Shown: one piece after another, positions 12,755 through 27,212 of the stretch
How the letters are laid out: the number at the start of each line of letters is the position of its first letter
Numbering within the stretch: the stretch's first letter is position 1
DNA from: Pseudofulvimonas gallinarii
GTDB taxonomy: Bacteria; Pseudomonadota; Gammaproteobacteria; Xanthomonadales; UBA2363
Reading direction: 5' to 3'
Assembly (NCBI RefSeq): GCF_004343305.1
Contig: NZ_SMAF01000008.1
Span: 1-64,000, forward strand
DNA length: 64,000 bases
Notes under the pieces: generated by a model
Database searches by the model: none
Told to the model about the DNA's origin: nothing
What the model saw: the letters and a program-made list of their open reading frames with translations, nothing else
Program-made: the position numbers and the translations under genes

Positions 12755-15649
12755 TTACCAGCTCCATTCCACCGACAAGGTGACATCACGACCCTTGTCG
12801 TAGACGCGATACGGCAGGCCGCCCTGCGTGTACTCCACCGGCTCGCCGAGCAGGTTGCGCAGGCGCAGCGACCAGCGCCAGTGCTCGCCCAGACGCTGCC
12901 GCCAGACGAAGTCGAGCTGGTGGAGCGGTTGCTCGTAGATGTCCGGCAGGCCACGCGTGCCGACGCCGGCAATGCGTTCACCGAATACGTTGTAGAGCAA
13001 CGTCGCCTCGGCGCGGCCATCGGGTTTGCGCCAGCCCAGCTGCACGTTGGTGACGTAGCGCGACTGGCCCTGCAACGGGCGATTGTCGGTGGTCTGATTG
13101 CCCAGCACGTCCTTGCCCAGTTCGATTTCCGAATCGATCCAGGTGTAGTTGAAGGCCAGGTACAGATCGTCCCAGGGAATACCGCCCAGCCAGCCGGACT
13201 CGAACGCCGACCAGCGCCTGAGCGCGCCCAGGCTGCGCACGTAGTCCAGCTCGATCCCGTAATTGGTCGCTTCCCTGGCGTTGCGTGGCTCGCGCAGGTC
13301 GCCGGTGCCGGGCACGCGGACGATTTCGATGGGATTCTCGAACTCCTTGAGGAAACCGGCGACCGACAGCGCCTCGCCTTCGGAGAAGTAGTATTCCCAG
13401 CGCAGGTCGTAGTTCTTCAGGTACGCCGGTTGCAGGTTCGGATTGCCCTGCATGGTCGCGTCAGTGACCGGATCGGTGTACGGCGAGCGGGTCAACTCGC
13501 GGAAATCCGGACGCGACAGCGTTTCGCTGTAGCCAAGTCGCACTTGCGCATTGTCGCTGTACGACCAGGTGAAGGTGCCGGCCGGCAAGGTGTCGCCGTG
13601 GTCGATCAGCGCCACCTCCGGCGGCGTATCCGGCGCGAACGGCTGGAAGGTGGTGACCTCCTGCCGGTTGTCCTCGCGGCGCACGCCCAGGTTGAGGCGG
13701 TAGCGGTCGGCAAAGGCGATGTCGACGCTGAGGTAGCGGCTGTCCAGTTCCTGGGCTGCGGCATAGACGTCGGTAGGCTGAAAGGCATCCTCGAGCACCA
13801 CCAGCGCCGGATCGATGCCGATGAACCCGGGTGTCAGCAGGTCTTCGATATGGTCGATGCCGGCAATCAGCGGACTGGCACCGGTGCGGAACAGGTAGCG
13901 GCGGATCCACGAATCGCGATCGCGCTCCAGGCGGCCGGCGCCGGCATCGATGGTCAGGGCCAGATCGTCGGTCAGCTGCAGCGGCAACGACAGGCCGATG
14001 GCCAGCTCCTCGGCACTGTCGTCCAGGCGCGCGCTGCGCTGGCGGTTGCCCTGGCTGCCACGCACCAGCCGCCAGCTGGAGGTGTCGGCGCGCCAGGCGT
14101 TGCGGTATTCGCGGGTGTTGGGTTCGATGCGCGAGGCATCCGAGCGCGTGTAGGCCCAGTTGGCGCTGAAGTAGCTCAGCGACGGAAACTCGTGTTGGCC
14201 GCTGAACTGCTTGACCAGCAACTCGTTCTCCAGCCATTCCAGCTGGTGGTTCTGGATCCGGTCGCTGGGCTCGGTGTCGTAGCCTTCGTCGATGCGCACA
14301 TCGTCGGTGGTCTGCCGCAGCAGCATGAAGGCAGAGTCGATGCGGTGGTTGCCGCCGAAGTCGACACCGGCGGTAACCAGTGCCGAGCTGTCGATGGCGC
14401 GCTCGGTGCGTTCGCGCTCGAAGGCCTCGGTCGGCGTCGGGCTGACCACGCCGTCGATGACCGGATACTTGCGCAGTGTCTCCTCGCGGTTGTCCCAGCT
14501 TTGCGCGTGGCGCAGCGCGGCGCTGTAGCCGAAGCGGATGTCGTCGCCGAAGGAGTCACCAATACTCAAGGCGAGCGTGCCGTTCGGCCCCAGGTTCCGG
14601 TCGCGAGGCGTGTAACCCTGCGCTGCCAGCGCCTCTGCGGCGCGCTCGCGCTCGGCGGGCGACAGGTCCGAAAGACGCCCGCCCAACAGCGCCGCCGGCA
14701 TGTCGCGGCTGCCATCGTCGCGGCCGCTCCAGTCGCGGTCGCCACCGCGGTAACCCAGGCCGTCATGGCCTGTCGTGCCCTCGGCATAACCCAGCGAGGT
14801 CGATGCACGCAGCCGGAAACTGTCCGGATAAGAGCGCGTGCGCAGCTGCACCGTGCCGCCACCGAACTCGCCGGGCATGTGCGCCGAATAGGTCTTCTGC
14901 ACCTCGACGCTGTCCAGCACATCGGTCGGGAACAGGTCGATGGGCACCACGCGGCGGGTCGGATCCGGCGATGGCACCTGGGCGCCATTCAAGGTGACGG
15001 CCGAATAGCGCTCTCCCAGGCCGCGCACGTAGATGAACTTGCCATCGACCAGGGTCAGGCCGGTGACGCGCTTGAGTGCGGCCGCGGCATCGCTGTCGCC
15101 GGCGCGCGAGATCTGTTCGGCGCTGATGGAATCCACCACCTGCGCCGAATAGCGGCGATCCAGGGCGACGGCGGCGGAACTGCCTTCGCGCACCACCTGT
15201 TCCTCGACCTCGATGGTGTCCAGGTGCTGCTCTTCGGCTTCATCGACGACCCCGGCCAGCGTTGCCGCAGCGTCGGCAAGAACGATGTCCCGAGTGGTGA
15301 CTTCACCGGCGGCGACCGGCACATCGGCGAAGCGCTGCTCGGCCAACCCATCGGCGCGCACCAGCAGCGTGTAGTCACCCGGCAGCAGCTCGATGGTGTA
15401 GCGGCCGTCTTCGCCGGTCAGGGCGAAGTGGTCGGTGCCCTCCACCAGCACTTCCGTGAAGGACAGCGGCGTGCCGTCGGCCGCCGTGACCTGGCCGACC
15501 AGCCAGACCGGCGACGCCTCGGCGGTCTGCATCATCGCCGTGACAGCTTTGGCCTGCGCCAGCGTTGCCGGCCATGCCGCGACATCCTGGGCCAGGGCAA
15601 TGCGGATGCTGGCTGCCAGCACGGCAACCGTGAGGGTGGGTCGGATCAT
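12755..15649 (-). CDS. TonB-dependent outer-membrane receptor, Oar-type
   Basis: The 964-residue protein has a signal peptide (1-20), then a carboxypeptidase-regulatory-like beta-sandwich at about 48-125. A TonB-box-like DTIEVEE lies at 144-150, a plug domain at about 155-275, and a long beta-barrel runs to the C-terminus. The plug contains VRGLGERYSAVTLNG and the TBDR motif YSAHMPGEFGGGTVQLRT. The last residues, VEWSW, end in the aromatic residue expected for outer-membrane insertion. The receptor should import a scarce, large substrate using TonB energy. Nothing in the sequence names it. The ATG at 15649 is chosen for its signal peptide. The secreted repeat protein downstream is the likely partner. 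Confidence 0.93.
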   Translation of the reverse strand: MIRPTLTVAVLAASIRIALAQDVAAWPATLAQAKAVTAMMQTAEASPVWLVGQVTAADGTPLSFTEVLVEGTDHFALTGEDGRYTIELLPGDYTLLVRADGLAEQRFADVPVAAGEVTTRDIVLADAAATLAGVVDEAEEQHLDTIEVEEQVVREGSSAAVALDRRYSAQVVDSISAEQISRAGDSDAAAALKRVTGLTLVDGKFIYVRGLGERYSAVTLNGAQVPSPDPTRRVVPIDLFPTDVLDSVEVQKTYSAHMPGEFGGGTVQLRTRSYPDSFRLRASTSLGYAEGTTGHDGLGYRGGDRDWSGRDDGSRDMPAALLGGRLSDLSPAERERAAEALAAQGYTPRDRNLGPNGTLALSIGDSFGDDIRFGYSAALRHAQSWDNREETLRKYPVIDGVVSPTPTEAFERERTERAIDSSALVTAGVDFGGNHRIDSAFMLLRQTTDDVRIDEGYDTEPSDRIQNHQLEWLENELLVKQFSGQHEFPSLSYFSANWAYTRSDASRIEPNTREYRNAWRADTSSWRLVRGSQGNRQRSARLDDSAEELAIGLSLPLQLTDDLALTIDAGAGRLERDRDSWIRRYLFRTGASPLIAGIDHIEDLLTPGFIGIDPALVVLEDAFQPTDVYAAAQELDSRYLSVDIAFADRYRLNLGVRREDNRQEVTTFQPFAPDTPPEVALIDHGDTLPAGTFTWSYSDNAQVRLGYSETLSRPDFRELTRSPYTDPVTDATMQGNPNLQPAYLKNYDLRWEYYFSEGEALSVAGFLKEFENPIEIVRVPGTGDLREPRNAREATNYGIELDYVRSLGALRRWSAFESGWLGGIPWDDLYLAFNYTWIDSEIELGKDVLGNQTTDNRPLQGQSRYVTNVQLGWRKPDGRAEATLLYNVFGERIAGVGTRGLPDIYEQPLHQLDFVWRQRLGEHWRWSLRLRNLLGEPVEYTQGGLPYRVYDKGRDVTLSVEWSW

Positions 15650-15867
15650 GGGCGTTCTCGGTCGGGACAAGGGCCGAACAAAGCCCCGGCAAGATGGATC
15701 GGCCGGCGCGCCCGCTCGGACTTCAGCGATGCGCGGCACTGTATGTCGGAGATGTTTCGGCTTTATGACGGGTCGCCCGGACGCGGACGATCCCGGCGGG
15801 GTGCGCTGGTCGCCAGGCGTGGCTGCGACACGATGACCCGACCCGGATGGCCGGTGGCGGATGCAGC

Positions 15868-15873
15868 TACAAT
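15868..15873 (+). promoter_or_regulatory. Candidate -10 box of argS
   Basis: TACAAT is a good -10 hexamer, but no convincing -35 box lies 16-18 bases upstream. Transcription would start near 15880, which argues against the upstream ATG at 15861 and supports the GTG start at 15903. Confidence 0.4.
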
Positions 15874-15902
15874 ACCGCATTGCACAACACAATGCCCCGC
15901 CC

Positions 15903-17660
15903 GTGAAAGACAGCCTGCACGCCCTGTTCGACCAGGCCCTGGCCAGCCTGGCCAGCGCCCGCGAAATCTCCACCGCGACCGTGCCCTTCGCCATCGAGCG
16001 CAGCCGCGACGGTGCCCACGGCGATTTCGCCTGCAACGCCGCCATGGTCAATGCCAAGGTCTTCGGGCAGCCGCCGCGCGCCATCGCACAGGCACTGGTC
16101 GAAGCGCTGCCGGCGCATCCGGGTGTGGAGCGGGTGGAGATCGCCGGCCCCGGCTTCATCAATATCTTCCTGAAAGCCGACGCGCGCCACGCCGTGGTCG
16201 CGCAGGTGCTGGAGCGCGGCGACGCCTACGGCCGGGTCGCGCCGGGCCGCGGCGAGAAGATCACCCTGGAGTTCGTCTCCGCCAATCCCACCGGCCCGCT
16301 GCATGTCGGCCACGGCCGCGGCGCCGCCTATGGCGCGACGCTGGGCAACCTGCTGGCCGCCGCCGGCCACGATGTGCAGCGCGAGTATTACGTCAACGAC
16401 GCCGGCCGGCAGATGGACATCCTCGGCACCTCGACCTGGCTGCGTTACCTGGAACAGCTCGGCGAGCCCTTGCGTTTCCCCGACAATGGCTACCGCGGCG
16501 ACTACATCAACGCCATCGCCAGCGACCTGGTCGAACGCGCCGGCGAGCGTTTCCGCCAGCCCTGGGCGACCGTGGCCGAGGGCTTGCCGGCCGATGAGGG
16601 CCAGGGCGGCGACAAGGAAGCGCATATCGACGCCATCGTCGCCCGCGCCAAGGCGCTACTGGGCCCGGAAGGCTACGGCGTGTTCTTCGACGCCGCGCTG
16701 GAGACCATCCTGGCCGACATCCGCGAGGACCTGGCCGGATTCGGCGTTACCTTCGACAACTGGTTCTCGGAACGCTCGCTGGTGTATTCCGGTGCCATCG
16801 ATCGCGCCCTGAAGCAACTCGACGACGGTGGCCACCTGTACGAGAAGGATGGCGCGCTGTGGTTCCGCGCGACCACCTTCGGCGACGAGAAGGATCGCGT
16901 CGTGCGCCGCGAGAACGGCGCGCTGACCTATTTCGCCTCCGACCTGGGCTACCTCAACAACAAGTTCGAGCGCGGCTACACGCGCGCCCTTTACCTGTTC
17001 GGCGCCGACCACCATGGCTACATCGCGCGCCTGAAGGCGGCCGCGCAGGGGCTGGGCCACGATCCGGAGCGCATCGAGATCCGCCTGGTGCAGTTCGCCG
17101 TGCTCTATGAAAACGGCGAGAAGATCCAGATGTCGACGCGCTCGGGCCAGTTCGTGACCCTGCGCGACCTGCGCCGCGATGTCGGCAACGATGCCGCGCG
17201 CTTCTTCTATGTCATGCGCGGCAACGACCAGCACCTGGATTTCGACCTGGCGCTGGCGCGCGAGCAGTCGAGCAACAACCCGGTCTACTACCTGCAGTAT
17301 GCGCACGCGCGCATCGCCAGCCTGTTCCGGCAGGCGCAAGGCAAGGGCGTGCAATGGAACCGCAACGCCGGCCTGGCGGCGCTGGACCAGCTGTCCACCG
17401 GCACAGAAGCCGCCGTCATGACGGCGCTGTCGCGCTATCCGGAATGGATCGCGGCGGCCGCCGAACAGCGCGCGCCGCAGCTGGTGGCCAACGGCCTGCG
17501 TGAACTGGCCATGGCCTTCCATGCCTTCTACAACGCCGAACCCATCCTTGCCGCGGATTCACCGCTGCGCGATGCGCGCCTTGCGCTGAGCGCAGCCGTC
17601 AAGCAGGTACTGGCCAACGGCCTGGCGCTGCTCGGCGTGAGCGCGCCGGACTCGATGTAA
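15903..17660 (+). CDS. argS: Arginyl-tRNA synthetase
   Basis: ArgS charges tRNA-Arg in the cytoplasm. From the GTG at 15903 it has 585 residues, the normal class I ArgS size. The signature SANPTGPLHVGHGRGAAYG contains the HIGH motif (here HVGH). The KMSKS equivalent is the degenerate KIQMSTRSG, as is usual in bacterial ArgS. YVNDAGRQMD, the anticodon-binding DALR domain and a short C-terminal helix complete it. I prefer GTG 15903 over ATG 15861 because TACAAT at 15868-15873 looks like its -10 box. The SPOR-domain gene follows after 13 bases. Confidence 0.96.
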   Translation: MKDSLHALFDQALASLASAREISTATVPFAIERSRDGAHGDFACNAAMVNAKVFGQPPRAIAQALVEALPAHPGVERVEIAGPGFINIFLKADARHAVVAQVLERGDAYGRVAPGRGEKITLEFVSANPTGPLHVGHGRGAAYGATLGNLLAAAGHDVQREYYVNDAGRQMDILGTSTWLRYLEQLGEPLRFPDNGYRGDYINAIASDLVERAGERFRQPWATVAEGLPADEGQGGDKEAHIDAIVARAKALLGPEGYGVFFDAALETILADIREDLAGFGVTFDNWFSERSLVYSGAIDRALKQLDDGGHLYEKDGALWFRATTFGDEKDRVVRRENGALTYFASDLGYLNNKFERGYTRALYLFGADHHGYIARLKAAAQGLGHDPERIEIRLVQFAVLYENGEKIQMSTRSGQFVTLRDLRRDVGNDAARFFYVMRGNDQHLDFDLALAREQSSNNPVYYLQYAHARIASLFRQAQGKGVQWNRNAGLAALDQLSTGTEAAVMTALSRYPEWIAAAAEQRAPQLVANGLRELAMAFHAFYNAEPILAADSPLRDARLALSAAVKQVLANGLALLGVSAPDSM

Positions 17661-17673
17661 CAGGATCGACACC

Positions 17674-18282
17674 ATGGCACGACGCACCTCCCACGCCCGC
17701 CGTGGCAAATCCGGCAATGGCATTCCCGCCTGGCTCTGGCTGGTCGCCGGCATCGCACTCGGCCTCGGCCTCGCCCTGGCGGCGATCTACGGCGGCATCG
17801 CACCCAGCCTGAGGCAGTCGCCCGACATGCCGCAGCCGGCTGCCGCCAGCCGTGCACCGGCCGGAGATGCCGCCGAGGCGCCGCCCACCGGCACCGGCAA
17901 GCCGCGTTACGATTTCTATACCGTGCTGCCGGAAATGGAAGTGCTGATCCCGGATTCGGAACTGCGCGAACAGGTGCGCGCCGAAACGCCGGCCACCGGA
18001 ACCGCCGCGGTTGCCCCGGTTGCTCCGCCCGAGACCGTCACCGCCGTCCGCTACCGCCTGCAGGCCGGTTCGTACCGCGATCCGCGTCCGGCCGAGGAAG
18101 CCAAGGCCCGCCTGGCACTGCTGGGCATCACGGCGACGGTGCAGTCGGTCAACGTCAACGGCGCGACCTACCACCGTATCTATGTCGGCCCCTTCAACAG
18201 CGCCGCCGAAGTCGAACGCGTCAAGCAGCAGCTGGCCGACAACGGCGTTCAGGCGATCACCGTCAAGGAAGCTTCGCCCTGA
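17674..18282 (+). CDS. SPOR-domain inner-membrane protein (FtsN-like)
   Basis: The 202-residue protein has a short basic cytoplasmic tail, one membrane helix at about 20-42 (PAWLWLVAGIALGLGLALAA) and a Pro/Ala-rich periplasmic linker. A C-terminal SPOR domain runs from about 125 to 200 (YRLQAGSYRDPRPAEEAK through IYVGPF). SPOR domains bind septal peptidoglycan stripped of stem peptides, so a role at the division site is likely. It follows argS by 13 bases, an order I associate with Xanthomonadales. It has the layout of FtsN but is shorter and lacks recognisable essential FtsN helices, so I give no gene symbol. Confidence 0.82.
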   Translation: MARRTSHARRGKSGNGIPAWLWLVAGIALGLGLALAAIYGGIAPSLRQSPDMPQPAAASRAPAGDAAEAPPTGTGKPRYDFYTVLPEMEVLIPDSELREQVRAETPATGTAAVAPVAPPETVTAVRYRLQAGSYRDPRPAEEAKARLALLGITATVQSVNVNGATYHRIYVGPFNSAAEVERVKQQLADNGVQAITVKEASP

Positions 18283-18285
18283 GCT

Positions 18286-18307
18286 CACGCGGCATCAGTG
18301 CCGCGTG
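18286..18307. terminator. Bidirectional hairpin between convergent genes
   Basis: A perfect nine-base stem (CACGCGGCA and TGCCGCGTG, loop TCAG) directly follows the SPOR gene stop and precedes the end of the convergent GTPase gene. There is no T run, so it is a weak terminator call. Confidence 0.5.
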
Positions 18308-18330
18308 ATGTCGCCGCGCTGAAAGACTTC

Positions 18331-19671
18331 TCAACGCCGCAGCCGTGAAAGGATTTCGCTGCGCGCCTCGCGCAGCACGGACTGGCGATCGAGTTGCGCG
18401 ACGATGTCGCGCACGACCTGCTTTGGACCCTGCGCGCCCCAGCTCTTGCCCTGCCGCAGGTAATGTTCCACGACGCGCCCGGTGATCAGTGTCGCGTACC
18501 ACGCGAGCGCACCCTGCGCACCGCCAGTCACCACGGTCGACAGCCCGGCGCTGACGACCTTCAACGCCGACGCCGCGACGTGGATGCCCCAGATGCCGGC
18601 CATCAGCGCAGCCACCTGTGCCGCGACCGTCGCGATCAGACGCGCCGCTTCGCGGCGGCTCAGCGGCAGGCCATATACACGGCCAAGATGGACCACGAGC
18701 GCAACGTCGAGGCCGGCCGCCGCGACCAGGTCGGCCACGGGCACCGGATTCAGCGCCACCGCAACGCCCTTGGCGATGCAGTAGCCCCGGATCACCTTGG
18801 CCGCCTGCTCGCGGCGCAGTGAGAGGATGCGCGCCGACACCTGGTCGGTAAGCCGCCCGGCGAACAGTCCCGCATTCAGGGCCGCCAGCGTGCGCCCTTC
18901 ACGGTCGAGGATGTCGAGCAGGCGCGCCTGCAGCGCGGCGATCTGCGGCTCCGCCGCAACCCGCGTGCGCACTTCCTCACCTCGCGGGTCGATGCGCACG
19001 CGCGCTCTTGCCGGCGGCTGCGCCGCGACCGCGAGCACGTTCTCGGGCACGATGCGTCCCTGTACGTAGCCACGCAGCTGCCCGAGCAGGCGCGCCTGTT
19101 CGTCGGCGCTGTAGCGATCGGCCTTGTTGAGCACCAGCAGCATCGGGCGCTGCTCGGCCGCGAGTCGCTGCAGCGCTTCACGCTCGGCGCGCACCGGGTC
19201 GCCTTCGACCACGAAGATCACCAGGTCGGCGCGACCCGCCACTTCGTACGCCAGTCGTTCGCGCGCATCGCCGTCGAGTTCGTCGATGCCGGGCGTATCG
19301 ATCAGGACAACCTTGCCGGCGCCAGCTTCCTGCCAGTCGGCGAGACTGTGCACCTGCGTCGTGCCATGCAGCACGCCGACCTCGAAAAGCGGGCGGCCGG
19401 CGAGTGCGTTGAGCAGCGCCGACTTGCCGACGCTGACCCGCCCGAACACGGCGATGTGGATGTCGCCGCGCTCAAGCTTGCCGAGCAGGCGTTCGACTTC
19501 AGCGAAGTCCGCGGCCAGCTGTGCGCGGATCGCCGCGGGGATCGTCGGATCGTCACGCAGCGCCGCCAGACTGTCCCGGGCCCGGGCACCATGGCGCCCA
19601 CCCGCACTCTCCGCCGGCGCGGCACCCGGCGATGTAGCGCTGCGGCCGCCTCGGCGCCAGGGCACTTTCAA
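18331..19671 (-). CDS. Era-like/DUF697 GTPase, second copy in operon (GTPase B)
   Basis: The 446-residue protein has a TRAFAC-type GTPase domain and a hydrophobic C-terminal half. The P-loop GRVSVGKS is at 77-84, the DTPG switch at 125-128 and NKAD at 182-185. From about 275 to 420, Ala/Gly/Val-rich helices resemble the DUF697 domain of YcjF-like proteins and suggest membrane association. The start is probably TTG at 19671, with GAGAG upstream, 10 bases after the YceI stop. It shares GTTQV near the switch and the sequence LVLNKADRYSADE with the GTPase at 21398, so the two are paralogues. Biological role unknown. Confidence 0.8.
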   Translation of the reverse strand: MKVPWRRGGRSATSPGAAPAESAGGRHGARARDSLAALRDDPTIPAAIRAQLAADFAEVERLLGKLERGDIHIAVFGRVSVGKSALLNALAGRPLFEVGVLHGTTQVHSLADWQEAGAGKVVLIDTPGIDELDGDARERLAYEVAGRADLVIFVVEGDPVRAEREALQRLAAEQRPMLLVLNKADRYSADEQARLLGQLRGYVQGRIVPENVLAVAAQPPARARVRIDPRGEEVRTRVAAEPQIAALQARLLDILDREGRTLAALNAGLFAGRLTDQVSARILSLRREQAAKVIRGYCIAKGVAVALNPVPVADLVAAAGLDVALVVHLGRVYGLPLSRREAARLIATVAAQVAALMAGIWGIHVAASALKVVSAGLSTVVTGGAQGALAWYATLITGRVVEHYLRQGKSWGAQGPKQVVRDIVAQLDRQSVLREARSEILSRLRR

Positions 19672-19681
19672 GCAGCGGCTC

Positions 19682-20227
19682 TCAACGCGTCAACGGCAGG
19701 TCGACAGCGACCTTGACCGCGTTGGCGATCAGGTCGGTGTCCGCCCAGTCACCGGTGCCGACGTCGAAATCCAGCCGCTTCAGCGTGACATCCGCGGTCA
19801 GCCGAGCGCTGTCGCCATCGATCACGAAACGGAAGGGAAATGGCACGCGCACGGTCTTGCCACGCAGCGTCAGTTCCCCGTCCGCTTCGTAGCTGTCGGG
19901 CCCGGTGCTGCGGAAGGTGCGCGCGATGAACAGGGCCTGCGGAAAGCCGCGACTGTCGAAGAATTCCTCGCCGTGCATGGTCGAGTCGTATTCCTCGTTG
20001 CCGGTGCGGGCACTGGCGACGTCGACCTGGACTTCGAACCGCGCGCTGTCCAGTGCCTCCGGATCGAAGCGGATCACCGGCTCGAAACGGTCGAAGCGGC
20101 CGTCGAAGGCTTCGCCCATGTAGGCGCCGGTAAAAGTGAGCGACCGTTCGGCCCCGGCACGCCAATCCCGGGCCAGCGCCTGGGTGGATGCGAACAGGAC
20201 GGTGCAGGCAAGCAGCAGGCGGATCAT
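19682..20227 (-). CDS. YceI-family periplasmic lipid-binding protein, second copy
   Basis: The 181-residue protein has an N-terminal signal peptide (cleaved after ALA) and a YceI-like lipocalin-type barrel. Family members bind polyisoprenoid or amide lipids in the periplasm. The family features SLTFTGAYMGEAFDGRF, a central SARTGNEEYDSTMHGEEFFD and a C-terminal VTLKRLDFDVGTGDW are visible. Its ATG overlaps the cytochrome b561 stop as ATGA, and GTPase B begins 10 bases after its own stop. A second YceI gene lies on the other side of the cytochrome. Family call firm; ligand unknown. Confidence 0.88.
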   Translation of the reverse strand: MIRLLLACTVLFASTQALARDWRAGAERSLTFTGAYMGEAFDGRFDRFEPVIRFDPEALDSARFEVQVDVASARTGNEEYDSTMHGEEFFDSRGFPQALFIARTFRSTGPDSYEADGELTLRGKTVRVPFPFRFVIDGDSARLTADVTLKRLDFDVGTGDWADTDLIANAVKVAVDLPLTR

Positions 20228-20787
20228 CGACGGTTTCTCCTGGAGCGCGGCAACATGCTGCGCAGCACGTTGTCGCGATTGACAAAATGATGCTGGAGGG
20301 CGGCGCCGGCGTGCATGAGCAGCACGATGACCAGCACGATCAGTCCAGCAAAATGCAGACCGCCGGCGAGCGCCTTGAGTTCCGCACTGCGTTCCACCAG
20401 CGCCGGCACCTTGAACTGGCCGAACCACTGCAGCGGGAAACCGGACGCGGAATTGTAGAGCCAGCCGGTCAGCGGCATTCCGATCAGCACCACGTACAGC
20501 GCCACGTGCGAGAACGACGCAGCAAGATGCTGCCAACGCGGCATCGGCGGCAGCAGCGGCCGACCGCGGTCGAGCAGCCGGATCAGCAGGCGCAGCAGCG
20601 CCAGGACGAGGATGGTCAGGCCGACGGACTTGTGCAGCGTGTACAGGCGGATGCGTTCCACCGGCGTGAAGTCGCCGTATTTCATCACCAGTCCCATCAC
20701 CGCCATGGCGATCACCGCCAGCGCCAGCAGCCAGTGCAGCAGCTTGATCGGGGTGCTCCAGTCCTGCGCCGTATTGCGCCAACTCAT
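20224..20787 (-). CDS. Cytochrome b561
   Basis: This 187-residue integral membrane protein has four hydrophobic helices and probably binds two b-type hemes, passing electrons from the quinone pool or to a periplasmic acceptor. Candidate ligands are H18 (LLHWLLA), H52 (YTLHKSVG), H145 (LHFAGLI) and H159 (LLMHAG), the usual spacing for the family. ATGA overlaps join it to YceI genes on both sides. Pairing of cytochrome b561 with YceI is widespread (yceJ-yceI in E. coli); having YceI on both sides is less usual. Confidence 0.92.
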   Translation of the reverse strand: MSWRNTAQDWSTPIKLLHWLLALAVIAMAVMGLVMKYGDFTPVERIRLYTLHKSVGLTILVLALLRLLIRLLDRGRPLLPPMPRWQHLAASFSHVALYVVLIGMPLTGWLYNSASGFPLQWFGQFKVPALVERSAELKALAGGLHFAGLIVLVIVLLMHAGAALQHHFVNRDNVLRSMLPRSRRNRR

Positions 20788-21401
20788 TTCGGAATCTCCT
20801 GTTGCTGTCCGCTGGAGGCCACATCGGGCGGATCCGCCACCTGCGCTTCCAGTTCGATGATCACCTCGACACGGTCGCCGATCAATGTCCGGTACCGATC
20901 CATGCCGAAGTCGTGACGCGACACCTGGCCGCGCGCACTGACGCCGAGGCGTCGCTTCATGGTCAGGGAAAATCGGCGCAGGTCGTTGACGGTGAACTCG
21001 AACACGACCGGCCGGCTGATGCCACGGATCGTCAGGTCACCATGCAGCCGGCCATGTTGTCCGTCGAGTACCTCGACCCGCGTCGACACCAGGCAGACCT
21101 CGGGGTGCGCGCGCTGGTCGAAGAATGCCGGCCGTTGCAGCGCCCTTGTCCAGTCTGCATCGCCCATGTCCAGGCCAGACACCGGCAGGCAGATCTCGAT
21201 CCGGCTGTTGCGCCAGTCGTCGGCATCGAACCACAGGCCACCCTGCACGGGCCGGAACTGGCCGAGGCTGCGCGAGAAGCGCGCATGCTCGACGAAGAAC
21301 AGCACCCGGGTATGCAACGGATCGATCGCGAACCATTCCGGCGCGGCCTGCAAGGTCGGCGACGCAGACAGCAGCAGGGCCACCGCAACGATACGGATCA
21401 T
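20784..21401 (-). CDS. YceI-family periplasmic lipid-binding protein, first copy
   Basis: The 205-residue protein has a signal peptide ending near LQAAPEW, then the YceI barrel opening with FAIDPLHTRVLFFVEHARFS. The central DMGDADWTRALQRPAFFDQRAHPEV and the closing FGMDRYRTLIGDRVEVIIELE fit the family. Its ATG overlaps the stop of the upstream GTPase as ATGA and its stop overlaps the cytochrome start, so it sits inside one coupled operon. It differs clearly from the second YceI gene, so this is an old duplication or two separate recruitments. Confidence 0.88.
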   Translation of the reverse strand: MIRIVAVALLLSASPTLQAAPEWFAIDPLHTRVLFFVEHARFSRSLGQFRPVQGGLWFDADDWRNSRIEICLPVSGLDMGDADWTRALQRPAFFDQRAHPEVCLVSTRVEVLDGQHGRLHGDLTIRGISRPVVFEFTVNDLRRFSLTMKRRLGVSARGQVSRHDFGMDRYRTLIGDRVEVIIELEAQVADPPDVASSGQQQEIPK

Positions 21402-22885
21402 GCCGGGCCCTTCGGATCGCGCGACGGACGGACGGTCTCCACGACCACGTCGCGCAGCACGCCGAGCACACGCGGCGCCGGCACCTGGCGCAGGCGATCG
21501 GCGAACGCCTGCGCCGCCGCTTCGCCGTCGAGCCGGCCGGCCTCGGCGAGCGTCTGTGCGACGGCCTTGCCGAGGCTGTCGAAGATCATGCCATAGGCCA
21601 CCGCATGCGCGAGGCCGCCGCCCAGCGTGCCCAGGCCGGGAAACGCCTTGGCGGCATTGCCGGCGATGGCCAGCACGACGGCCGTCGTCGTGCGCAACGT
21701 GCGGCCGGCGCGATCGATCAGCGCATCGATGTCGATCTGCCGCACCGTTGTCTCGTAAAGGGACGCCAGTTCGCGGACCAGACCCGTGCCCAGCGCGCCC
21801 TGGATGACCAGGTCGCTGCCCGGCGCCACCGCTGCCAGCGCGCCCACCACCGCACGCCGCGTGTATTTCGCCACCACCGCCTCGGCCAGTTCGCTGCGTC
21901 GGCGCGTCTCGACTTCGCCCAGTTGCTGGTCCAGGCCCTTGAGGACGGCATGCTGGCGCGCTGCTTCGAAGGCGCCGGCGCCCGCTGCCAGGCGGCGCGA
22001 CAGCACGCCCGTCAGCGGCTTGACATGCGGCGGCCGCGGCCGGCGCTGCACGACGATGCCCGCGGCGGTTTCCACTTCCACCTCTTCCTCGCCGCCCGCG
22101 CTGACGGCGACCACCTCGCAGCCGCTGCGTTCGGCCAGGCGCCCAAGCAACCGCCGGGTTTCGTCGGCGCTGTAGCGGTCAGCCTGGTTCAGCACCAGCA
22201 GGACGGGCTTGCCGAAGGCCCGCAGCCAGTCGACTTCAGCGGCTTCGCTGCGGCCGAGGTCGCCGCTGCACAGGTACAGCACCCAGTGCGCACGCAGGAC
22301 TTCAGCGCGGGCCAGCGCTTCGCGCCCGGCGTCTTCCTGGCTGCCGGGCACATCCGCCAGCACCAGCTCGCGACCATCCGGCAGCGTCCCGCGGTAATGA
22401 TGGACGACCTGCGTGGTGCCACCGATGACGTCGCTGGCCGTATCGGCGCCGGGCACCAGCGCACGGATCAGCGCGCTCTTGCCAGCGTTGATGGCGCCGA
22501 AGACCGCGACGTGCAGCTCGCCACTGGCGGCACGCGCGTCGAGGTCGGTCAGTTCATCATCCACCGCCGGCACCGCGGTCTCCAGCTCCAGCAGGCGCGC
22601 GGCCCGCTGCTGGATGCGTTCGCGCGTGACCGGTTCGACAGCCCGCGGCGTCGCCCGGGTGCGTCGCCGCCGCAGGAGTCGCCAGCCGAGCCCGGCGATC
22701 ACCACGGCCGCCAGCGACAGTAGCGAGATGTACAGGTAACGGAACCCGGCGGGCAAAGCCTGCAGGCGCTGCCAGACCGACAGGGCGGTATCGACGGTCA
22801 GCAGCGCCAGGAGCAGCGCACCGCCCACCGCCGCGGCAAGCAGCGCGAAAAGCAACCAGCGGATCAGCGTGGAAACGGGAGGCAC
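21398..22885 (-). CDS. Membrane-anchored Era-like/DUF697 GTPase, first copy (GTPase A)
   Basis: The 495-residue protein begins with two membrane helices at about 11-31 and 49-68. A GTPase domain follows with P-loop GAINAGKS (130-137), DVPG (178-181) and a variant G4 motif NQAD (233-236) in place of NKxD. A DUF697-like hydrophobic C-terminal half runs from about 320 to 490. The shared sequence LVLNQADRYSADET shows it is a paralogue of the GTPase at 18331. The GTG at 22885 is the best start, though its ribosome site is weak. The open frame further upstream is antisense to the M23 gene. It heads a five-gene operon with a stop-start ATGA overlap to YceI. Cellular role unknown. Confidence 0.8.
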   Translation of the reverse strand: MPPVSTLIRWLLFALLAAAVGGALLLALLTVDTALSVWQRLQALPAGFRYLYISLLSLAAVVIAGLGWRLLRRRRTRATPRAVEPVTRERIQQRAARLLELETAVPAVDDELTDLDARAASGELHVAVFGAINAGKSALIRALVPGADTASDVIGGTTQVVHHYRGTLPDGRELVLADVPGSQEDAGREALARAEVLRAHWVLYLCSGDLGRSEAAEVDWLRAFGKPVLLVLNQADRYSADETRRLLGRLAERSGCEVVAVSAGGEEEVEVETAAGIVVQRRPRPPHVKPLTGVLSRRLAAGAGAFEAARQHAVLKGLDQQLGEVETRRRSELAEAVVAKYTRRAVVGALAAVAPGSDLVIQGALGTGLVRELASLYETTVRQIDIDALIDRAGRTLRTTTAVVLAIAGNAAKAFPGLGTLGGGLAHAVAYGMIFDSLGKAVAQTLAEAGRLDGEAAAQAFADRLRQVPAPRVLGVLRDVVVETVRPSRDPKGPA

Positions 22886-22957
22886 GCCGGCATGGTAGCC
22901 GCTGCCGCCGGACGCGTCTTGAACGGCTGCGATACCGCCACTAAGGTTTCCCGGGCC

Positions 22958-23974: not shown

Positions 23975-24532
23975 GTGGCTGATATCACCTTGTTGCTGTC
24001 CGGCACCCGCGAAGATGGCAGGCCCGATCTGGGCGCGGTGTTCGACCAGCTGTATGACGAACTCAAGCGGATCGCGATCGCCCGGGTCGCGGAACTTGGC
24101 CAGCGCGACACGCTGTCTGCCACCGGACTGGTGCACGAGGCTTATCTAAAGCTCATCGCCGCCGACCAGCTGTCGCTCTCCTCGCGCAAGCATTTCTTCG
24201 CCTGTGCCGCACGCGCCATGCGGCAGATCCTGATCGACCGCAACCGCGGCGCACTGGCGGCGAAGCGCGGCGCCGACTTCGAGCGCATCACCCTGTCGCG
24301 CTGTGACGCCGAAGCGGCAACCCCGGCACTCCTGGATCTCGACCGCGCCCTGGACGATCTTGAACAGATCGACCCCGACCTGCGGGAGCTGGTCGAACTA
24401 CGCTATTTCGCCGGCCTCTCGCTCGCGGTAATCGCCGAGCTGCGCGGCATTTCCCTGCGCACCGCCGCGCGCGACTGGGAACGCGCACGGACGCTGCTGC
24501 AGATGCGACTCGACGCCGATGCAATCCGGTGA
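23975..24532 (+). CDS. ECF-type RNA polymerase sigma factor paired with a kinase
   Basis: The 185-residue protein is an extracytoplasmic-function sigma factor of the TIGR02999-like group, whose members commonly sit beside Ser/Thr kinases. Region 2 is seen as TGLVHEAYLKLI through ARAMRQILIDRNRG, and region 4 as LRELVELRYFAGLSLAVIAELRGIS followed by a helix-turn-helix. The GTG start has GAGGCGG seven bases upstream. No anti-sigma gene adjoins; instead the kinase gene overlaps its last 14 bases. Kinase-dependent activation is a plausible reading from known sigma-kinase pairs, not shown here. Confidence 0.92.
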   Translation: MADITLLLSGTREDGRPDLGAVFDQLYDELKRIAIARVAELGQRDTLSATGLVHEAYLKLIAADQLSLSSRKHFFACAARAMRQILIDRNRGALAAKRGADFERITLSRCDAEAATPALLDLDRALDDLEQIDPDLRELVELRYFAGLSLAVIAELRGISLRTAARDWERARTLLQMRLDADAIR

Positions 24533-27212
24533 ACTGAACCGCTGGCGGGAAGCCAACCGGCTTTTTGCCGAGTGGCTGGCGCTTGAAGAAGCCGCCCGTC
24601 ACGACTGGCTTGCATCGCTGCGCGCGGACGAGGATGTGGCCACGCTGCTGCGACAGCTCGTCGCGCGCCATGCCGCCGATGATGGCGCGACGCTGGGCTT
24701 CGCCGGGACGATCGCTGCCGTCCCGTCTGCGGTACCTGTCCGCAACGCACTGTCCGGCCGCCGAATCGGGGACTGGACACTGCTGGACGAACTCGGTCGG
24801 GGCGGCATGTCCGTCGTCTACCGTGCCCGTCGTGACGGCGGCTTCGATCAATTCGCCGCCATAAAGCTGCTCGGCCTTGCCGCACTGGGGTCGGACGGCA
24901 CTTCCAGGTTCGAACACGAACGCGCCGTGCTTGCCCGGCTGAGGCATCCGCACATCGCAACGCTGATCGACGGCGGCATCGCCGACGACGGCACGCCGTA
25001 TCTGGCGATGGCGCTGGTCGAGGGTCTCGACCTCGCCACGTACTGCGACACGTTCAAGCTCGACTGGCGCCACCGGGTCCGGCTCGTCCGCATGGTCTGC
25101 GACGCCGTCGCCTATGCCCATCGCAACCTGCTGGTCCATCGGGACATCAAGCCATCCAACATCCTGGTTACCCGGGAAGGATTGCCGATACTGCTGGACT
25201 TCGGTATCGCGAAGCTGCTCGATGTCGATACGGACCACACACGCACCGGGATGCGCGCGCTCACGCCCGCATACGCCGCACCGGAGCAGTTGAATGCCGA
25301 TATCGTAACCACGGCGACGGATGTGTACGCGCTGGGCATCGTGCTGCGCAACCTGTGTGATCGCATCCCGTCGATTCCCGTCGATCTGCGCAACATCATT
25401 GCCAAGGCGACCCGCGGCGAGCCGGATCGGCGGTATCCGGATGCACGCGCACTGGGCGAGGACCTCGACAATCTGCTCCAGCAGCGTCCCGTCGAGGCCA
25501 CGCCTGACAGCTGGGCCTACCGCCTGAGCGTTCTACTGCGGCGTCGCCGCGGCGCCGTGGTGGCTGGCGTGCTCGTGGTCGCATCGCTGGTGGCCGGCCT
25601 GAGCGTGGCCCTCTGGCAGGCACATCGGGCGGCGCAGGAAGCCATGGAGGCACGCCGTCAGGCCGCGCGCGCCGAGGCCAGCCGGGACTTCCTTTTTTCC
25701 ATAGTCCACGCCGGCGACCGGACACACGGCAATGACGCGGATGTCCCGGTATCGCAGGTCATCCAGCGTGGCGTACTCGCGCTGCAGGACCAGCCTCCCG
25801 AGGATCCGGAGCTGCATGCGGAAATGGCCATGATGCTGGGCGAGCTGGAGACGATCGTTGGCCAGTATGACAGTGCGATGCGGCTTTTCGACGCCTCGGG
25901 TAAACAGTTGTCGGTATTGGACAATCCCGCGCTCGTCGCCGGGTTGTCGGTGCGACGTGGCGTACTCGCAAACACGCGCGGCGATCCCGCCGCAGCGATT
26001 TCCCACTTCGAAGATGCATTGGCCGCCGCACGGGGCGTGCCGGACGAACGCAAGGCCGCGCTGGTTCCCGCTGCGCTGGACGGCTGGGCCTATGCCATGG
26101 ACAACACCGGCCGGGGCGACGAAGCCAGGCACCATCTCGAGGAAGTTCTCGCCACCGCCTCGTACGCGCCACCGGATTCCGATGCCCACGTCGCCCTGCT
26201 GGTCGCGCTGCAGTCGGTCACGCGCAACCCACCGGATCGCCTCGCGCTGCTCAGGCGCATCGATGATGCGTACAGGAAGCTCAGACCGTCCTTGACCGAC
26301 CGCATCGTACTCGCGCACGGAATGGCGTCGGCCCATCTGGCATTGCGACAGCCGGCCGAGGCGCTGCCTTGGGCCCGCGAGGCCTCCCACCTGACCGACC
26401 GCGCGCACCCGGGTGCGACAATCCGGCGTGCGCGGGCCCGCAACAATCTTGGCAATGCCGCGTCGCACGCCTTTTCACTTGGAGAGGCGGTTGCGGCCCA
26501 CCGCTTTTCGCTGGACCTGTACCGTCAGCTCGGGGACGAACGCTCGCCGGCCTATGCCGCCGCGCTGCACAATCTGGGTGTCCTGCTCCGGGACATCGGC
26601 CATCCGCAGGCTGCACTGCCCCTGCTTGAACAGGCCACCGCGCTGGCCCGGGAACATTTCGGGGACGCCGATATCCGGCGTATCCATGCGCAACGCAATC
26701 TGGCCCTGGCACGGGCGTTCAGCGGGGATGCCTTTATTGCCGCGACGGAATGGCAGGACGCCCTGCGGCTGTTGCCGGACTCCGCGAGCGCCCTTGACCG
26801 GCACGACATGTGGGTGTCCGGCGCACTCATTGCCGCATCACGCAAGGACGCCGCCGAGACAGAACGGCTTGCGGGCGAGATCACCCGTCTCGTCGCGGCC
26901 GAGGCCAGCCCTTTGCTGGCCAACCCGCGTGCGCGCGCATGGCAGCGCGGGCTGCCAGCCATCGCCACGGCACTGCATGGCGACGCTGCCGCCGCACAAC
27001 AGTTGTTCCAGGAGGCCCTTGCCGATGTCGACCACGCGCATCACGCCGACTGGGCCGCCCATCGCCACATCCTTCTCGTCTGGGCGGAGCACTGCGACCG
27101 CGAGGGTGACGGCGACGCCGCGCGTCGGCACCGCGCCGACGCCGCGGCCCTGCTACGCGCCGGCGGCCTCGAAGCCGATGACCTCAGCGGAACCGCGGTC
27201 CTGCCGGACTGA
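24519..27212 (+). CDS. Membrane Ser/Thr protein kinase with C-terminal TPR region
   Basis: The 897-residue protein carries a complete Hanks-type kinase domain at about 85-320: glycine loop GRGGMS (93-98), catalytic Lys in AIK (116), HRDIKPSN (207-214) and DFG (227-229). One membrane helix spans about 345-366. The remaining 500 residues are helical repeats with TPR character, which would lie outside the cytoplasm and may sense a ligand. The ATG overlaps the sigma gene by 14 bases, so the two are coupled and probably form a signalling pair. The activation segment has Thr residues (TRTGMRALTPAYAAPE) suited to phosphorylation. Signal unknown. Confidence 0.93.
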   Translation: MQSGELNRWREANRLFAEWLALEEAARHDWLASLRADEDVATLLRQLVARHAADDGATLGFAGTIAAVPSAVPVRNALSGRRIGDWTLLDELGRGGMSVVYRARRDGGFDQFAAIKLLGLAALGSDGTSRFEHERAVLARLRHPHIATLIDGGIADDGTPYLAMALVEGLDLATYCDTFKLDWRHRVRLVRMVCDAVAYAHRNLLVHRDIKPSNILVTREGLPILLDFGIAKLLDVDTDHTRTGMRALTPAYAAPEQLNADIVTTATDVYALGIVLRNLCDRIPSIPVDLRNIIAKATRGEPDRRYPDARALGEDLDNLLQQRPVEATPDSWAYRLSVLLRRRRGAVVAGVLVVASLVAGLSVALWQAHRAAQEAMEARRQAARAEASRDFLFSIVHAGDRTHGNDADVPVSQVIQRGVLALQDQPPEDPELHAEMAMMLGELETIVGQYDSAMRLFDASGKQLSVLDNPALVAGLSVRRGVLANTRGDPAAAISHFEDALAAARGVPDERKAALVPAALDGWAYAMDNTGRGDEARHHLEEVLATASYAPPDSDAHVALLVALQSVTRNPPDRLALLRRIDDAYRKLRPSLTDRIVLAHGMASAHLALRQPAEALPWAREASHLTDRAHPGATIRRARARNNLGNAASHAFSLGEAVAAHRFSLDLYRQLGDERSPAYAAALHNLGVLLRDIGHPQAALPLLEQATALAREHFGDADIRRIHAQRNLALARAFSGDAFIAATEWQDALRLLPDSASALDRHDMWVSGALIAASRKDAAETERLAGEITRLVAAEASPLLANPRARAWQRGLPAIATALHGDAAAAQQLFQEALADVDHAHHADWAAHRHILLVWAEHCDREGDGDAARRHRADAAALLRAGGLEADDLSGTAVLPD

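Follow-up and report, generated by a model that had tools for sequence, protein, structure and literature searches.

The DNA studied here is a window of 64,000 nt from contig NZ_SMAF01000008.1 of Pseudofulvimonas gallinarii (GCF_004343305.1). On its minus strand, five genes follow one another in the order GTPase, YceI, cytochrome b561, YceI, GTPase, and the gene coordinates bear out both this order and the tight junctions that an initial annotation had described. GTPase A (21398-22885; GTG start, 495 aa) is followed by YceI-1 (20784-21401; 205 aa, with a YceI domain and, by eye, a signal-like N-terminus), a cytochrome b561 of 187 aa with four membrane helices (20224-20787), YceI-2 (19682-20227; 181 aa, again with a YceI domain and a signal-like N-terminus), and GTPase B (18331-19671; TTG start, 446 aa). 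Three junctions are 4-base overlaps (21398-21401, 20784-20787, and 20224-20227), and the fourth, between YceI-2 and GTPase B, is a 10-base gap (19672-19681). These five genes make up the whole directon, because the upstream neighbour, a plus-strand gene whose translation is M23 peptidase-like, is divergent, and the downstream neighbour, a plus-strand gene with a SPOR-like translation that ends at 18282, is convergent.

The divergent intergenic stretch between GTPase A and the M23-like gene (22886-22957) is presumed to be the promoter region. No sigma-70 consensus was found in it, nor any consensus promoter or terminator on the operon strand. At the other end, an inverted repeat with a 10-bp stem (approximate limits 18287-18310) lies in the space that separates the operon from the SPOR-like gene; it folds as a hairpin with a modest z of -1.95, has no T run between the convergent ends, and may be a two-way terminator. 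Because no consensus promoter was seen, we infer co-transcription of the five genes from their spacing. Elsewhere in the window, ORF translations alone suggest that a gene resembling a sigma factor precedes one that resembles a Ser/Thr kinase and contains a helical repeat region (23975-27212), and point to a minus-strand TonB-dependent receptor-like gene with an N-terminal carboxypeptidase-like domain (12755-15692). Some real genes are overlapped by very long antisense open frames (12881-16597 on the plus strand, among other places), which reflect the high G+C content and are not genes.

Both GTPases were compared with Pfam families. GTPase B matches DUF697 (PF05128) at 9.3e-30, with 103.9 bits against a gathering cut-off of 27.7, and MMR_HSR1 at 1.3e-18; a whole-genome search showed that its DUF697 domain is the only one in this genome. 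GTPase A matches MMR_HSR1 at 4.7e-11, and its DUF697 match (0.0099, 16.1 bits) stays below the same cut-off. The two proteins are 31-32% identical across their G and C-terminal domains, and a profile-profile alignment of 340 columns (E 7e-49) covers the G domain as well as the DUF697 region, so that, by sequence comparison, A and B are paralogues, as had been proposed along with their DUF697-like character. The difference in membrane anchor that had been noticed is also real. GTPase A consists of two N-terminal membrane helices, an Era/Der-like G domain (~121-284), and a DUF697-like helical C-terminal domain, and the N-terminal hydrophobic helices (11-29 and 53-71) are found in A only. GTPase B also has an Era/Der-like G domain, lacks N-terminal membrane helices, and has hydrophobic helices only inside DUF697 (~303-373).

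Motifs G1 to G4 are intact in both proteins (G-x4-GKS, GTT, DxPG, and N(K/Q)xD). The initial annotation had noted that A and B differ in G4, and in the window they do (NQAD in A, NKAD in B), but the NQAD of A is seen in the window's genus only; in the other sequences in which the motif could be located, both families have NKxD. We hence rejected the G4 difference as a family-defining trait. The shared stretches LVLN(K/Q)ADRY and GTTQV, also singled out earlier, are indeed present and correspond to G4 and G2 respectively, which by themselves would indicate just GTP binding. AlphaFold models (pLDDT 87 for A and 81 for B) predict an Era/YsxC/Der-like G domain followed by long helices. The G domains of both models match Era, YsxC, and Der at Z 17-19, Der and Era are also the first to be matched by the sequence profiles of the GTPases, and matches to dynamin-type folds are reliable over the G domain only. 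Full-text searches for DUF697 found no functional study among the papers covered.

Between the two GTPase genes, the YceI products match their Pfam model at 1.6e-29 (YceI-1) and 1.5e-27 (YceI-2), and the b561 matches Ni_hydr_CYTB (PF01292) at 1.7e-30. Five haem-type histidines of the b561 (18, 52, 94, 145, and 159), at or in membrane helices, are invariant in 41/41 sequences. Both YceI proteins score far under the E. coli YceI equivalog NF002994 (59 and 58 of 232 bits). The genome has two more YceI genes outside the window (G000:C23:43192-43680 and G000:C24:30906-31379), and the former scores above both operon copies on the Pfam YceI model. Both sister species of the window's genus encode b561 and YceI-2 as a fusion in a single open frame of 375 aa (L112:7933-9060 in G002 and L113:4420-5547 in G014), in which the signal-like stretch of YceI is kept as a linker; the window differs in having them as two overlapping, unfused genes. 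This fusion is an independent sign that the two proteins act together, and the literature agrees with the earlier remark that YceI and b561 are a known pair (PMC9113575). Also in a sister species, an 842-aa frame containing GTPase B could have been taken for a YceI-GTPase fusion; its translation revealed merely an open upstream frame.

To see how widely the GTPases occur, A and B were searched in 151 genomes of the window's own taxonomic order and in 274 genomes of the class, and their positions were tallied. Both were found in 70/75 genomes of the order having either, and in 35/37 in the rest of the class; several of the exceptions are matches at contig ends or in incomplete genomes. The two genes are hence nearly always both present or both absent. 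The pair occurs in 30 of the 222 genera sampled in the class, and relatives of A occur in further classes of the phylum too. Among the 70 genomes of the order with both GTPases, 44 have them directly adjacent with no gene between, and 15 have b561 in a gap of 1.7-2.4 kb between A and B. One genome (G149) has b561 inside an 8.3 kb gap, with ~6 kb of extra DNA between A and the part containing YceI-b561-YceI and GTPase B (L116; G149:C2:3781106-3792174); another (G065) has YceI but no b561 in a gap of 870 bases; and in the remaining nine A and B lie far apart or on different contigs. In the class outside the order, 32/35 pairs are adjacent, three are on different contigs, and none of the 35 has the cassette between A and B.

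The five-gene order is therefore found beyond this genome, namely in 15 genomes from three families (3 of the window's own genus, 11 of family f12, and 1 of family f2). With order and direction identical in all of them, the arrangement is not due to chance, and the cluster is a genuine conserved five-gene operon-like unit. The single machine proposed from these GTPases and the YceI/b561 genes is not supported by the same survey: the pair usually occurs without them, which the initial annotation had named as a refuting outcome. In cassette-free lineages the pair is often found downstream of aroK, aroB, and hemE (e.g. L069:4584-5681, L078:6513-7583, and L082:3687-4256). These three genes lie upstream of the pair at many loci, and an AI-2E transporter gene lies downstream in one group; no recurrent third partner was common to all loci inspected.

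The two parts of the cluster come apart in both directions. Among the genomes that carry the GTPase pair without the cassette, 15/43 have no YceI gene over the Pfam threshold, and this is the case for 14/18 such genomes in family f7. Conversely, 17 of the 20 GTPase-free loci inspected in families f2, f3, and f12 have a complete YceI-b561-YceI set. Most of these solo cassettes share flanks with the five-gene loci, namely a serine dehydratase gene on the side of YceI-2, a Reg_prop hybrid histidine kinase gene on the side of YceI-1, or both; of these, the serine dehydratase is the stronger marker, as such hybrid kinases may be multi-copy. Since the flanking genes are mostly kept, the GTPases were probably lost in place at these loci. 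In genus g52, for instance, B has stayed beside the cassette in three species, and a fourth has the cassette but neither GTPase, a pattern that reads best as loss in place. The cassette-free A-B pairs sit at other loci, often near hemE.

The A tree and the B tree each place all cassette-bearing genomes, together with the split derivatives, in a single clade (SH-aLRT 99 in both). The merger therefore most likely happened once, and these phylogenies suggest a single origin of the five-gene arrangement. The cassette genes cluster by family and not by GTPase presence, and a single clade of GTPase-associated cassettes excluding the solo ones was rejected (AU p 9e-39). The trees are compatible with either route to the merger: entry of the cassette between A and B, or arrival of A and B around the cassette. 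Across the families of the merged clade, linkage of the five genes persists at ~50% GTPase identity, which is more than expected for pure accident, so that a lineage-specific regulatory or functional link is possible.

We consider it fairly probable that the locus combines two separable envelope modules, merged once and sharing one transcript: a DUF697-type GTPase pair and a YceI-b561-YceI lipid-antioxidant set. Gene content, order, homology, and distribution, the single clade, the independent occurrence of the modules, and the b561-YceI fusion are the basis for this explanation. The first module would consist of two paralogous, nearly always co-occurring GTPases of the DUF697 type: A would serve as an inner-membrane anchor through its two N-terminal helices and B would be membrane-associated through its DUF697 helices; together they would probably form a hetero-oligomer whose GTP cycle alters something at the inner membrane. 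The second would be an antioxidant set of the LcoA/BcnA kind. Here the haem b561 would exchange electrons with the quinone pool on one side and, on the other, with an isoprenoid or quinone held by periplasmic YceI, and this transfer would quench lipid peroxyl radicals or superoxide; a second carrier is probably provided by YceI-1. For these YceI proteins, a redox role is proposed by analogy, with the chemistry taken from Burkholderia and E. coli. The merger would have occurred once, in an ancestor shared by the window's genus and its related families, and would have left the cassette between genes A and B; several lineages would later have lost or separated the GTPases and retained the cassette. 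If both modules helped to maintain the inner membrane, it would be understandable that they can be co-expressed and yet are separable.

The initial annotation had instead suggested a single membrane machine that would couple electron flow and lipid carriage to GTP hydrolysis; in such a machine, the GTPases would gate or power the b561-mediated supply of quinone or lipid to YceI. The five-gene order conserved in three families, its tight junctions, and the fact that the cassette often remains with A or with B when the cluster breaks up all speak for such a machine, but the majority of GTPase pairs do without the cassette, 15/43 of the cassette-free pairs are in genomes without any YceI gene over threshold, and the cassette persists where the GTPases are absent. 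With the modules occurring separately both ways, we regard a single machine as quite improbable. At the other extreme, the cluster could be a matter of regulatory convenience only, envelope genes sharing a promoter and being kept together by operon inheritance, with no functional contact between their products. That the parts occur apart and that the cassette genes sort by family rather than by GTPase presence would fit; this explanation overlaps with the two-module one and differs only in denying a shared stress role, and we hold it to be unlikely.

A further alternative concerns the GTPase module only, and is compatible with the two-module explanation: A and B could work together as small dynamin-like proteins of bacteria, remodelling or tethering the inner membrane in the way of LeoABC or the Campylobacter DLP pair. 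Dynamin_N is over the Pfam cut-off in B (48.3 bits) but under it in A. Mitofusin, BDLP, LeoA, and the Campylobacter pair are near the top of the Foldseek lists, but with query TM-scores of only 0.22-0.35. About 250 residues of B could be aligned to Fzo1 (VIA-align) with a Z of 17.5, albeit with an rmsd of 5.8-6.5, and simple Era-like G domains take the best Z. The nearly obligate pairing of paralogues would suit dynamin-like proteins; the small size of A and B and the priority of Der and Era in sequence-profile matches would not. Judging from the models, a dynamin-like mode is only a lead, and we doubt that it will prove correct. More speculatively, A and B could be an undescribed two-subunit, membrane-anchored GTPase with Era-like G domains on a DUF697 scaffold, spread over many gammaproteobacterial families and some related classes and coupled in one lineage to a b561-YceI relay, the membrane action of which would be controlled by GTP hydrolysis. 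We give this full scheme very little weight.

Under the two-module explanation, the comparison resolves what was a tempting five-gene machine into two modules that would have merged once, and the GTPase duo, conserved and nearly always paired, becomes the more interesting question. The cassette is a variation on an already known antioxidant arrangement, and the GTPase pair falls in a known superfamily with no function described in the literature searched. Relatives that are naturally merged, unmerged, or GTPase-free, together with the b561-YceI fusions, make the link testable by comparative genetics.

Several known systems resemble parts of this locus. In E. coli, YcjX and YcjF are a Psp-linked GTPase and a DUF697 membrane protein; as here, two genes form a unit in which a GTP-binding protein is combined with a membrane-located DUF697 domain, but in our pair each partner has its own G domain. 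Membership of the YcjX/YcjF family was rejected, as no DUF463 appears among the Pfam matches of either GTPase. The top NCBIfam model for both, over most of their length, is slr1306 (NF049994), a cyanobacterial family in which A (76 bits) and B (151 bits) fall far under the 490-bit cut-off. In the literature, 'slr1306' gave one bibliographic mention, in the reference list of PMC5472144, which cites it as a putative CO2-concentrating component. Tandem bacterial DLPs (the Campylobacter pair, 5owv, and LeoABC, PMC4159319) share with A and B the pairing of paralogous GTPases and some resemblance in fold, but A and B are shorter, their G domain is Era-like, DUF697 takes the place of the dynamin stalk, and full-length TM-scores are low. 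The b561 is like E. coli CybB, a superoxide oxidase (PF01292), in being a four-helix b561 with conserved histidines, but with 64 bits it stays under the 170 bits of the equivalog for E. coli-type cytochrome b561. The cassette is closest to Burkholderia LcoA (b561) and BcnA (YceI), which lower membrane lipid peroxidation, in the proposed model through re-reduction by b561 of lipocalin-held ubiquinone-8 (PMC9113575). The LcoA-BcnA-BcnB cluster comprises the same two families in a tight adjacent arrangement, with two YceI genes and one b561 gene (PMC9113575), and in both cases a b561 (PF01292) with conserved histidines lies beside YceI (PF04264). Its order is b561-YceI-YceI, whereas here it is YceI-b561-YceI with GTPase flanks. 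Orthology to LcoA-BcnA and an antioxidant action of the present cassette are putative. Natural b561-YceI fusions occur in both settings, the LcoA and BcnA genes being fused in most alpha-proteobacteria (PMC9113575).
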